Below are positions 51,693 to 56,032 of a DNA stretch of 64,000 bases, piece by piece. This DNA is from Terriglobia bacterium (GTDB lineage Bacteria > Acidobacteriota > UBA6911): the NCBI GenBank assembly GCA_020072565.1, contig JAIQGI010000003.1, positions 1 to 64,000 of the forward strand, written 5' to 3'. Each line of letters begins with the position of its first letter. Position 1 is the first letter of the stretch. Under the pieces are notes generated by a model that was given only the letters and a program-made list of their open reading frames with translations, searched no databases and was not told the origin of the DNA. The position numbers and the translations under genes were made by a program.

Positions 51693-51872
51693 ATGCTGAG
51701 CTCCGTGCGGCACGTTCCCGAGTGGACATTCCCGGCGCCCCCTGTCGGCGGCTCCATCTTTGCAGTTCTTGACCTGGTCGAGGACAGTGAGATGGGATGC
51801 CGGATCTCAGTCTCGGGCAAGAGAATTGCGATCTTGAAGCGGCTCATCTTATGGGCGAACGGTGCGTACTGA
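51693..51872 (+). CDS. Possible small protein of unknown function
   Basis: A 59-residue frame beginning at an ATG nine bases after a good GGAGG, immediately following pdxB by 22 bases. The translation (MLSSVRHVPEWTFPAPPVGG at the start, a hydrophobic-acidic middle, LKRLILWANGAY at the end) is not low-complexity and contains no family motif I recognise. It may be a co-transcribed small gene between pdxB and the transporter; the ribosome-binding site is the main support. Confidence 0.35.
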   Translation: MLSSVRHVPEWTFPAPPVGGSIFAVLDLVEDSEMGCRISVSGKRIAILKRLILWANGAY

Positions 51873-51915
51873 ACCGGCGATCCGTGACCCTTACCCTATG
51901 GGGGGAGAAAAACCA

Positions 51916-52299
51916 ATGATTCGAGTTCTCATTGCAATGACTGTCGCGGCCATGTCGGCGGCCGTGGGGCAGATCCTGGTCAGGCGCGGGATGCAGCAGG
52001 TTGGATCCCTCGAGAACTATGCGCCGATGGCTCTGCTCGTGTACTTTGGCCACACGGCGAGCAACTGGTACATCATCCTGGGGACTGCGCTGAACACGGT
52101 GTTTTATCTTCTTTTTCTCGCCGCGCTCTCCTGGACTGACGTGACGGTAGTCCTGCCGATGACCGCGATCGAATACGGTTTTGCGGCATTCCTGGCGGCA
52201 ATCTTCCTGAAGGAGCAGATCTCGCCGGTCCGATGGGCCGGGATCGCACTGGTCATCATCGGTGTGATTTTCATCGCTCGCAGCGGAGGGGAAGCCTAG
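51916..52299 (+). CDS. Small multidrug-resistance/EamA-type membrane transporter
   Basis: A 127-residue protein with four membrane helices (VLIAMTVAAMSAAVGQIL, the segment around YFGHTASNWYIILGTALN, VFYLLFLAALSW, AGIALVIIGVIFIA), half the size of a full EamA transporter and matching SMR or the ArnE/ArnF flippase type. The P-M-x-x-I-E-Y-G and FLKEQISPVRWAGIALVIIGV segments are typical. GGGGGAG lies about eight bases before the ATG at 51916. Being next to a DegT aminotransferase and SDR genes, it may translocate a lipid-linked sugar; that is inference. Confidence 0.8.
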   Translation: MIRVLIAMTVAAMSAAVGQILVRRGMQQVGSLENYAPMALLVYFGHTASNWYIILGTALNTVFYLLFLAALSWTDVTVVLPMTAIEYGFAAFLAAIFLKEQISPVRWAGIALVIIGVIFIARSGGEA

Positions 52300-52423: not shown

Positions 52424-53551
52424 ATGCCCGACCCACAGAATAAAATTCCCGCCGCCAGAATCCAGTTTATGCCCGAAGATCGAGCCTGGATCGCGGAGCG
52501 GATTCAGGAAGTGCTCGCCAGCGGGCAGCTCACGCTCGGCCGGTACGGGACCGAGTTCGAGCAGATGTTTGCCGCCTTCTGCGGCGTGCAATACGGCGTG
52601 GCCGTCAACAGCGGTACCAGCTCACTTGAGATCATTCTCAGATCTCTCGGTGTCGAGGGAAAGGATGTTCTGGTGCCCACCAACACGTTCTTCGCAACGG
52701 CAGCGGCGGTAGTGCACGCCGGCGCCAACCCTGTCCTGGTGGACATGGATCCCGAATCGTTCGCCGTGCGCCCCGAGGATGTGGAGAGGAAGCTGACCCC
52801 CAAGACCGCCGCCGTAATCGTGGTGCATATCGGCGGCCTGGTGTCCCGGCGCATGCCGGAATTGGTCGACCTCGCCTCCCGGAAGGGAATTTGGCTCGTT
52901 GAGGACGCCGCTCACGCGCACGGGTCATCCCTCTCCGGTACGAGTGCGGGAGCGTTCAGCATCGCCGGTTCATTCAGCTTCTACCCGACCAAAGTAATGA
53001 CCTGTGCCGAAGGAGGCATGATAGTAACCAATCACCACAAGATCGCCGAGGAAGCCCGTATCTATCGTGACCAGGGAAAGGCCAGTTTTGCCCAGAACGC
53101 CCATGTGCGCATGGGTTACAACTGGCGCATGTCGGAGCCTCACGCCATCATCGGGCTCAGGCATCTGGAACGCCTCCCCGCCATGATCGCCGACCGGCAG
53201 AAGATTGCCGGCGTCTACGATCAGGCGCTGGCTCGCATGCGCAACCTGAGCACGCCGGTTGTGCCAGCAAAAGGCGTCTGCAACTACTACAAATATATCG
53301 CGGTGCTTCGGCACCCATGCGATCGCAAGGAACTGAAAGCTCACCTGCGCGAGCGCTTCGGCGTTTCGCTGGCGGGGGAAGTTTACGAGGTTCCCCTGCA
53401 CAAGCAGCCTGTGTTTGAAAAATATGCCTCCGGCACATTGCCGGTTGCAGAGGACCTGTGCGCAAGGCACATCTGCCTGCCGATCTTCTCCGGCATGACG
53501 GAAGAAGACGCGCGACAGGTAATTCACGCGATCACGGAGGCCATCGGCTGA
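52424..53551 (+). CDS. DegT/DnrJ/EryC1/StrS-family sugar aminotransferase
   Basis: PLP-dependent aminotransferase placing an amino group on a keto-sugar nucleotide. 375 residues: NSGTSSLEIILRSLG, VPTNTFFATAAAV, VEDAAHAHG (D161 contacts the PLP ring), FYPTKVMTCAEGG with the Schiff-base lysine K190, and RMGYNWRMSEPHAIIGLRHL. This is a full-length sugar aminotransferase similar to ArnB or PseC types; the position aminated cannot be told. An AAAGGA sits upstream of the ATG. It is followed after about 180 bases by two SDR epimerase genes. Confidence 0.92.
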   Translation: MPDPQNKIPAARIQFMPEDRAWIAERIQEVLASGQLTLGRYGTEFEQMFAAFCGVQYGVAVNSGTSSLEIILRSLGVEGKDVLVPTNTFFATAAAVVHAGANPVLVDMDPESFAVRPEDVERKLTPKTAAVIVVHIGGLVSRRMPELVDLASRKGIWLVEDAAHAHGSSLSGTSAGAFSIAGSFSFYPTKVMTCAEGGMIVTNHHKIAEEARIYRDQGKASFAQNAHVRMGYNWRMSEPHAIIGLRHLERLPAMIADRQKIAGVYDQALARMRNLSTPVVPAKGVCNYYKYIAVLRHPCDRKELKAHLRERFGVSLAGEVYEVPLHKQPVFEKYASGTLPVAEDLCARHICLPIFSGMTEEDARQVIHAITEAIG

Positions 53552-53732: not shown

Positions 53733-54656
53733 ATGAGAATCATAGTTACGGGAGGATCGGGTTTCATTGGTTCCCATGTGGTAGATGTCTTGGCAGCGCA
53801 GGGCCATGAGGTCTGCATCTATGATTTGGACACACCGCAGCATGGCGCAGCCTGCGAATACGTGCGCGGCGACACAAGGGATTTGGACCGGTTGGTCAAG
53901 ACCGCTCGGTCCGGTGATATCATTTATCACCTGGCTGCCGAGGCAAATGTGAATCGATTTTTCGAAAGCCCGCTGTTTTCTAATGAAAACACCTCTCATT
54001 CGGCCCTGTGTGTACTGGAAGCGGCACGACGCGTCGGGGCCGCCCGGGTACTGCTGGCGTCTACGGAATGGGTTTACGGATCGGCGAGTGCTGAAGGCAA
54101 CAGTGTGATCACTGAAGATTGCTCGTATGCGCGGGCACCGGATCACCTGTACACCTGCTCCAAAATAGCGGCCGAACTGTTTTGTGTTGGCTACCGGAAT
54201 CTTTATGGCGTCGACTACACCATCATGAGATACGGAATACCCTTTGGGGAGCGCGCCCGACCTGAAACGGTCACGCCGACGTTCATTCGAAGAATCCTCC
54301 GGGACGAAACCATACGTATCCATGGTGACGGCAGCCAGTACCGCCAGTTTATCTATGTCAGGGATCTCGCAGAAGGGAATGCCGCTTGCCTGAGGGAGAG
54401 CGCGAGAAACGAGATCTTTAACTTGAACGGGCAAGAGAAGGTGACGGTGCTTCAGGTCGTCAATGCTCTGGAAAGGATCCTGGGCAAAAAAGCGAGCGTG
54501 GAGTTCGTGGAGGATCGGAAAGGAAATTTTAAGGGTCGGTTCATTTCATCGGAAAAGGCAAAGCGCATGTTGGCATGGACACCCCGGCACGGATATGAGG
54601 AAGCGCTGGCCCGATACGTCGAGCAATATTTGACTGCGGTGAGGCCGCCGTCATGA
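53733..54656 (+). CDS. NAD-dependent nucleotide-sugar epimerase/dehydratase (extended SDR)
   Basis: A 307-residue extended SDR. GGSGFIGSHV (7-16) binds NAD, YHLAAEANV is the second family motif, and the catalytic residues are the S110/T111-E region with Y140-x3-K144 (YTCSK). The end matches UDP-sugar epimerases and dehydratases (FIYVRDLAEGN, YEEALARYV). Exact substrate is unknown. GAGG precedes the ATG, and the stop overlaps the next gene's ATG by four bases. Confidence 0.9.
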   Translation: MRIIVTGGSGFIGSHVVDVLAAQGHEVCIYDLDTPQHGAACEYVRGDTRDLDRLVKTARSGDIIYHLAAEANVNRFFESPLFSNENTSHSALCVLEAARRVGAARVLLASTEWVYGSASAEGNSVITEDCSYARAPDHLYTCSKIAAELFCVGYRNLYGVDYTIMRYGIPFGERARPETVTPTFIRRILRDETIRIHGDGSQYRQFIYVRDLAEGNAACLRESARNEIFNLNGQEKVTVLQVVNALERILGKKASVEFVEDRKGNFKGRFISSEKAKRMLAWTPRHGYEEALARYVEQYLTAVRPPS

Positions 54657-56032
54657 AACGCGATGTTGCGATCATAACTGGGGATATGAGCATCAAGGAG
54701 GCAATCCAGTCGATCGAAAAGAGCCGGTTCGATACGGGTTTCGCGCTCGACGGGCGGGGAAGATATCGAGGGACTATTTCTATCGGCGATCTGCGGCGGC
54801 TTCTTATCAGCGGAGTCAATGAGGCTGATGTCATCAACGGTCAGCCGTGCTCGTATAACTATGCCGTGAGGGATACGGATCTCAAGAGCGAGGAGGTGGT
54901 CCGGAACACGCTGTCAGACCTGACTCTCCAGGGTATAGAACACATCCCTGTCCTGGGCGCAGACGAAGAGATCGTCGATGTGCTCTCGCTGGAAGACCTG
55001 CGTCAGGTATCCACCACATCCCAGGTGCCGGGTTCCGCCAATGGCCGGTTGAGGAGAATCCTGATCGTAGGAGGGGCCGGGTATCTTGGCAGCGTGCTTG
55101 CCACAAAGCTTCTGGGACGCGGATACACTGTGAGGATTCTCGACAACTTTTTATACGGCAAGCGGTCGCTCGAGCAGATCCCGCAGTCCGCGGCCCTGGA
55201 GATTATCGAGGGAGACCTCAGGAATATACACACCTGCGTGAGCGCTCTGGACAGAGTCCATGCCGTTGTGTTGCTGGCAGCCATTGTCGGCGATCCCGCA
55301 TCGAAAATACGGCCGAGAGAAACAATCGAAACCAATGTAATTGCGGCCCAGGCGCTGGCGGCAGCCTGCAAGCTACAATGCATTAACCGCTTTCTCTATG
55401 CCTCGACTTGCAGTGTCTATGGGTCGGGTAACAGCCTTCTCGACGAGAACGCCGAACTGCGGCCGGTGTCCCTCTATGCCCGCACGAAGATTGCTTCCGA
55501 ACAGACGATACTCTCCATGGGGGATGGGTACTTCGCGCCGACCATCTTGAGGATGGGCACACTGTACGGCTATTCACCGAGAATGCGTTTCGATCTGGTG
55601 GTGAATACCATGACCATGAACGCTTTTTCCGAAGGCAGGATTCGGGTGTTCGGCGGGAAGCAATGGCGACCCCTCCTGAGCGTTCAGGACGCCGCCGAGG
55701 CCTATGTGCATTGTATCGAGGCGGATATTGCGAGTGTGGGAAATCAGGTGTTCAACATCGGCTCTGATGAGCAGAACTATCAGATCGAAAATATCGCCCG
55801 GGTCATCGCCGGAACCCTCGGCACCGTCGACGTTCAGCATGACGACAAGAGCCTGGATGTAAGAGACTACCGTGTAAGTTTCAAGAAGGTGCATGACGTG
55901 CTGGCCTTCCACGCAGCGGACACCGTCGCAGCCGCATCCAGGAAAATTTATTCCAGCCTCGCGAACGGCCTCATTCCGGACCCCTCGCATAGAATCTACT
56001 ACAATCATTTCTTCGATGTGACGGAAGAATGA
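54653..56032 (+). CDS. CBS-pair/NAD-dependent epimerase fusion protein
   Basis: 459 residues in two parts. Residues 1-120 form a CBS (Bateman) pair: MSIKEAIQSIEKSRFDTGFALDGRGR ... ISIGDLRRLL, then TLQGIEHIPVLGADEEIVDVLSLEDLRQV, the usual regulatory module that binds adenine nucleotides. After a short linker, residues 134-459 form an extended SDR: VGGAGYLGSVLATKLL (139-154), LLAAIVGDPASKI, the S251-T ... Y275-x3-K279 catalytic set (SLYARTK), and a C-terminal substrate domain. CBS pairs are usual on sugar nucleotidyltransferases, rarely on SDR epimerases. Starts with ATGA overlap to the preceding SDR, so both are translated together. Probably an allosterically regulated nucleotide-sugar epimerase; unproven. 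Confidence 0.85.
   Translation: MKRDVAIITGDMSIKEAIQSIEKSRFDTGFALDGRGRYRGTISIGDLRRLLISGVNEADVINGQPCSYNYAVRDTDLKSEEVVRNTLSDLTLQGIEHIPVLGADEEIVDVLSLEDLRQVSTTSQVPGSANGRLRRILIVGGAGYLGSVLATKLLGRGYTVRILDNFLYGKRSLEQIPQSAALEIIEGDLRNIHTCVSALDRVHAVVLLAAIVGDPASKIRPRETIETNVIAAQALAAACKLQCINRFLYASTCSVYGSGNSLLDENAELRPVSLYARTKIASEQTILSMGDGYFAPTILRMGTLYGYSPRMRFDLVVNTMTMNAFSEGRIRVFGGKQWRPLLSVQDAAEAYVHCIEADIASVGNQVFNIGSDEQNYQIENIARVIAGTLGTVDVQHDDKSLDVRDYRVSFKKVHDVLAFHAADTVAAASRKIYSSLANGLIPDPSHRIYYNHFFDVTEE

Follow-up and report, generated by a model that had tools for sequence, protein, structure and literature searches.

The 64,000-nucleotide stretch of a Terriglobia bacterium contig analyzed here (the window) contains a gene whose product appeared to join a CBS pair to a nucleotide-sugar short-chain dehydrogenase/reductase (SDR), which raises the question of whether such a fusion is real, what reaction its catalytic part carries out and what the CBS pair may be doing there. 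An earlier note, made from the sequence alone, had described it as a rare combination and proposed an SDR epimerase gated by cellular energy charge.

The features of the locus are collected in Table 1. When the whole protein was searched against Pfam, CBS (PF00571) was found at residues 1-51 (E 1.5e-7, 32.1 bits, cut-off 24) and Epimerase (PF01370) at residues 136-370 (E 1e-44). The first CBS repeat alone passed in that scan, while two CBS stretches appeared when the 122-aa region was scanned by itself. The N-terminal region of each of ten orthologues matched CBS (10/10, best E 9.8e-15), and a profile of these ten regions spanned both repeats of solved CBS pairs (2yzq, 2-118; KdsD, 4o9k, 6-118, E 2.4e-6). 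A first structure model based on 10 sequences was too weak (pLDDT 66) and was superseded by an AlphaFold model obtained with 63 sequences, plasmid-derived rows being left out. This model (mean pLDDT 90.8) consists of two CBS repeats, a disordered linker (pLDDT below 50 at residues 123-131) and a well-defined SDR. Repeat 1 is formed by strand 6-9, helix 14-23, strands 28-32 and 38-43 and helix 44-52, and repeat 2 by helix 80-93, strands 97-101 and 107-112 and helix 113-120; Pfam, the model and the 4o9k alignment agree with the beta-alpha-beta-beta-alpha order of two tandem CBS repeats. The catalytic part has the GxxGxxG Rossmann motif and the YxxxK of extended SDRs. The start of the gene is supported by the invariance of M1-K2 in ten aligned Acidobacteriota proteins, where LRR-L-x-SG is also invariant or nearly so, and it shares an ATGA at 54653-54656 with the end of the SDR gene before it. 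The CBS pair in residues 1-120, the extended SDR with GGAGYLG and Y275-x3-K279, and the overlap with another SDR gene, all pointed out in the earlier note, were thus borne out. PADLOC gave no match to a defence system.

Table 1. Features of the CBS-SDR locus, in positions of the window.
Feature	Positions	Strand	Basis
Small EamA/SMR-type membrane protein, ArnE/F-like, probable member of the gene group	51862..52299	+	PF00892; adjoins DegT in sister-genus loci too
DegT/DnrJ/EryC1/StrS aminotransferase	52424..53551	+	PF01041 E 5.7e-107; 3bn1 E 1.6e-57
Partner SDR1, 307 aa, ending in the ATGA overlap with the fusion	53733..54656	+	PF01370; orthologues before the fusion gene
CBS-SDR fusion gene	54653..56032	+	459 aa ORF; Pfam, AlphaFold model, full-length orthologues
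CBS repeat 1, residues 1-52, G40..S43..D46 and LRRLLISG (47-54)	54653..54808	+	PF00571, model, motif columns
CBS repeat 2, residues 64-121, S112..D115	54842..55015	+	CBS stretch in isolated-region scan, 4o9k alignment, model
Linker, residues 122-133, 12 residues	55016..55051	+	Low model confidence; length and sequence variable among orthologues
Extended SDR domain, residues 134-455, Cj1427-like	55052..56017	+	PF01370, 6vo6 profile match, fold alignment
NAD-binding GGAGYLG, residues 140-146	55070..55090	+	G140, G143, G146 invariant in 63-77 sequences
Catalytic Y275-x3-K279	55475..55489	+	Y275 invariant, K279 at least 90%

Full-length homologues (residues 1-459) were found in the other genome of the same genus (75% identity), in a sister genus, where eight genomes have one (55-59%), and in a single genome of a second family (49%). 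Two more genomes of that same other Acidobacteriota family (G452 and G457, at contig ends) carry the fusion as well, which makes 12 other Acidobacteriota genomes in two families. The CBS-SDR architecture was also detected by tblastn in six plasmid records of haloarchaea (Natrialbaceae), four of which cover at least residues 13-452 with 38-40% identity; a contig scan with exact short peptides from a single protein had missed this type. The archaeal fusions are annotated merely as 'NAD-dependent epimerase/dehydratase' or 'SDR family oxidoreductase', and their N-termini scored 20-37 bits with the CBS profile, five of the six above the 22.5 bits of the top-scoring CBS protein encoded elsewhere in the window's genome. 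Two of them (L142 and L143) have kept the first repeat and lost or eroded the second, which is partly deleted in L142. In the Natrinema record (L143:7782-9623), the annotated start removes the first repeat, present in frame upstream. No carriers of the CBS fusion were found among 55 viral loci. An assembly or annotation artefact, or a one-off event, was rejected as the origin of the fusion and has next to no probability left: no point in its support was found, and the full-length orthologues in 12 other genomes are free of internal stops and are accompanied by the six plasmid records. From these full-length homologues and the archaeal plasmid occurrences it follows that the fusion is real and conserved. 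It is also apparently undescribed, since no earlier description was found in the limited open-access literature covered; a count of domain architectures in InterPro/UniProt could show such fusions to be commoner.

With respect to the reaction, Cj1427 from Campylobacter jejuni was the top phmmer match (1.3e-31), gave by far the best match of the family profile (6vo6, E 1.1e-78, the next being 7.5e-48), and ranked first both by Foldseek, whose rows cover the SDR part alone, and by VIA-align (Z 40.5, rmsd 1.6, 301 residues aligned), being therefore the closest protein by sequence, profile and fold. The Campylobacter enzyme is a C4-dehydrogenase with a ping-pong mechanism, in which NADH stays bound and is re-oxidised by 2-oxoglutarate (PMC10680097). 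Because identity between both SDRs is merely 28-29%, the substrate and reaction of the fusion could differ from those of Cj1427. The active-site segment S251-T-C-S-V-Y-G (251-257) is conserved and GalE/Cj1427-like. In 4,6-dehydratases, an Asp/Glu acid-base pair follows the active-site Thr (T-D-E); this pair is missing from the segment, and a 4,6-dehydratase role was rejected on that basis. The SIS domain of KdsD/KpsF isomerases is absent from the Pfam matches of the fusion. A GalE-type NDP-sugar 4-epimerase, or another epimerase, carrying a CBS pair would be suggested by GalE (TIGR01179) as the second-best NCBIfam model, at 99 bits against a cut-off of 262, and by UDP-GlcNAc C4-epimerase and MoeE5 as the next-best folds behind Cj1427. 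Even so, we regard an epimerase instead of a dehydrogenase as doubtful, given that the family profile places Cj1427 around 100 bits above every epimerase and that the recurrent DegT partner requires a keto sugar. The previous assignment to the SDRs is maintained, but 'epimerase' was too specific for a protein whose closest relative is a C4-dehydrogenase.

The neighbouring genes give this SDR a context. Orthologues of SDR1 (59-81% identity), with a conserved S-T-E-W-(V/I)-Y-G segment, directly precede the fusion gene in every sufficiently long Acidobacteriota locus. The DegT aminotransferase gene is found upstream of the fusion in the window, in the sister genome and in five of the six haloarchaeal plasmids, and also adjoins several unfused relatives of the same SDR clade and lies directly upstream of five of six members that bear a transmembrane module. 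Perosamine synthetase, a GDP-4-keto-sugar enzyme, is the closest solved aminotransferase for the DegT proteins of both the window (3bn1, E 1.6e-57) and the haloarchaea. In the sister genus (g2) and in family f64 the aminotransferase is not adjacent to the fusion gene; a DegT orthologue (69-73%) is present elsewhere in most g2 genomes, in some of them with EamA. The EamA-type protein of the window reached 25.4 bits with ArnE, below the cut-off of 92. Since the SDR is Cj1427-like and its clade is repeatedly paired with a perosamine-synthetase-like DegT, we infer that it makes a keto-sugar nucleotide and so supplies the substrate for transamination.

Several observations on these surroundings can be added. 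In the sister genus there is a conserved block of PdxB, HpnI, HpnK, (EamA), DegT and MazG (L161:4822-10638; also L162, L163 and L165), which links the DegT of that genus to hopanoid glucosamine genes, and PdxB-EamA-DegT in the window is not accompanied by HpnI and HpnK. All of family f1 has HpnI, even the fusion-less genome G188, but the fusion-bearing f64 genomes lack HpnI; because its distribution does not follow the fusion, a hopanoid link was rejected as its explanation. In genome G296 (L053:7307-8572) a class V aminotransferase gene (cysteine desulfurase-like, TIGR01976) overlaps that of SDR1 at the place where DegT would be expected. Plasmids of Pantoea and Klebsiella (L144:8001-11488 and L152:6004-9494) have a small SDR-DegT-NUDIX-hypothetical unit in common. 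On Deinococcus plasmids, more distant SDR relatives belong to an rfbF-lhgO-SDR-rfbC cluster (L147:3949-7640 and L151:3979-7604), in which lhgO codes for an L-2-hydroxyglutarate oxidase; the lhgO neighbourhood is circumstantially in line with L-2-hydroxyglutarate production by the SDR, and the cluster suggests 2-oxoglutarate recycling on a CDP-sugar.

Taking together the domains, their conservation, the gene pairing and the closeness to Cj1427, the explanation we favour, to which we would assign a probability of about 0.45, is an NAD-dependent sugar-nucleotide dehydrogenase of the Cj1427 kind, in which a CBS pair has taken the N-terminal slot and regulates the enzyme allosterically. What we infer beyond the observations concerns the C4 oxidation, the 2-oxoglutarate recycling, the identity of the ligand and the direction of regulation. 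The SDR would oxidise an NDP-sugar at C4 and hold the resulting NADH tightly until its re-oxidation by 2-oxoglutarate. The keto sugar, possibly altered further by SDR1, would receive its amino group from the DegT aminotransferase; the glutamate half-reaction of the latter would supply 2-oxoglutarate and may in this way re-oxidise the SDR. The small ligand that the CBS pair would bind is most likely a nucleotide from the same pathway or one of its nucleotide sugars, in a form of product feedback; once bound, it would change the activity or the assembly of the SDR, and the fusion would probably enable the cell to hold back a single step in the synthesis of amino sugars. Against this explanation stand the fast evolution of the CBS pair, with ligand motifs that are not strictly conserved and a second repeat degraded in haloarchaea, the separate location of the aminotransferase gene in g2 and f64, and the fact that the SDRs adjoining lhgO form a distant branch.

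The role of the CBS pair is where alternatives have to be weighed. The energy-charge gate previously proposed, by which AMP, ADP or ATP (or SAM) would bind to the pair and switch the SDR with the energy state of the cell, is consistent with the ribose-binding (S/T)xxD motifs, intact in both repeats of the window protein (S43/D46 and S112/D115) and in some orthologues, and with the presence of archaeal CBS proteins and AMPK gamma among the best CBS matches. These motifs are lost, however, in several orthologues: S/T43 is replaced by V or A in four of the 11 Acidobacteriota rows, D46 by Q in G296 and by Q or R across G296 and all five aligned haloarchaea, and D115 is gone in these five, where the second repeat is degraded. 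Furthermore, among single-domain PDB matches that cover both repeats, the best belongs to a sugar-nucleotide-pathway enzyme: it is the CBS pair in arabinose-5-phosphate isomerase (4o9k), with which DLRRLL is shared. This likeness suggests sensing of sugar nucleotides, as product feedback, rather than of energy charge, and makes them at least as good a guess for the ligand as adenine nucleotides; energy gating keeps the support of the window's own motifs, but we consider it unlikely. As for a specific compound, CMP-Kdo inhibits an arabinose-5-phosphate isomerase (3ETN; PMC9587256). In 3ETN it may sit at the active site instead of the CBS pair. For this reason CMP-Kdo, also the presumed ligand of the CBS pair in 4o9k, is taken as a lead only.

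It could also be thought that the pair has no physiological ligand and serves as a module for oligomerisation, or for docking to SDR1 or DegT, that is being lost where it is not needed. Core residues and those of LRR-x-L-x-SG are more conserved than those of the ligand motifs, the second repeat is eroded in haloarchaea up to its partial deletion in L142, sister SDRs carry a transmembrane module in the same slot, and the CBS pair diverges faster than the SDR (38% vs 68% identity between the window and G196). By Nei-Gojobori counts, dN/dS for the CBS pair in the haloarchaeal pair L139/L141 is around 0.6, compared with 0.15 for the SDR, and therefore indicates relaxed constraint there. The corresponding values in close Acidobacteriota pairs (around 0.15-0.36) indicate purifying selection, which, along with the intact motifs in several bacterial members including the window, argues against a purely structural role, which we likewise consider unlikely. 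Overall, we would place feedback by a nucleotide-sugar product ahead of adenine nucleotides, and these ahead of a structural role.

The history of the fusion was approached with an SDR-only maximum-likelihood tree of 64 rows, in which all 19 CBS-fused rows formed one clade (UFBoot 91, SH-aLRT 88; recovered in 94% of the bootstrap trees), while the six SDRs in which this N-terminal slot holds a membrane module of 3-5 helices formed a separate one (97/87). Independent gain of the CBS pair in archaea is not favoured by this result, although other positions for the archaeal rows were not rejected by AU tests (p 0.13-0.33), and a single origin of the fusion is for that reason favoured rather than proven. 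A wider and more speculative proposal, on the unlikely side at present, would be one ancient fusion common to Acidobacteriota and haloarchaea. Its CBS pair would respond to a sugar nucleotide and exert allosteric control over a dehydrogenase that forms keto sugars and recycles 2-oxoglutarate; with a membrane anchor in the same slot of the sister enzymes, ligand regulation and membrane localisation would have been swapped within one family. Membrane modules were located at L012:7578-8003, L055:9174-9699 and L145:5479-5949, and also in L013, L056 and L058; several contain a GFYTYGRxYRxRYK-like motif. L145 is an Aphanizomenon phage, and its SDR with the membrane module adjoins polysaccharide genes.

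CBS pairs are known on many enzymes; in the limited open-access literature covered, no description was found of one controlling a sugar-nucleotide SDR. Should the pair respond to a ligand, the fusion would be an allosteric SDR open to direct testing, and a point at which the supply of amino sugars is controlled in Acidobacteriota and haloarchaea, two groups about whose surface glycans little is known. The presence of a CBS pair or a membrane anchor within one SDR clade also provides a clean natural comparison between regulation by ligand and by location.

Among known systems, Cj1427, a GDP-heptose C4-dehydrogenase, shares with the fusion the SDR fold, the SPRMRxDLxVN segment and YxxxK, but has no CBS pair, and no coupling to a DegT aminotransferase was seen for it in the data examined. 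The membrane-anchored relatives (L012, L013, L055, L056, L058 and phage L145) belong to the same SDR family and have, where the fusion has its CBS pair, a module of 3-5 transmembrane helices without Pfam match. In Pseudomonas aeruginosa, WbpB acts at C3 paired with the aminotransferase WbpE, a member of the DegT family, and is not known to be an SDR of the type present in the fusion. The proposed chemistry can nonetheless be likened to that of WbpB, an NAD dehydrogenase without CBS pair that recycles NADH with 2-oxoglutarate (PMC8651671). With regard to the regulatory part, KdsD/KpsF (4o9k) has a CBS pair on an enzyme of a sugar-nucleotide pathway, alignable with that of the fusion over both repeats, but located C-terminally to a SIS catalytic domain instead of N-terminally to an SDR. 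PtmE of C. jejuni is a sugar-pathway CBS-nucleotidyltransferase with an N-terminal CBS pair; proteins of this type resemble the fusion in having that pair at the N-terminus of a sugar-nucleotide enzyme, their catalytic domain being a nucleotidyltransferase instead.
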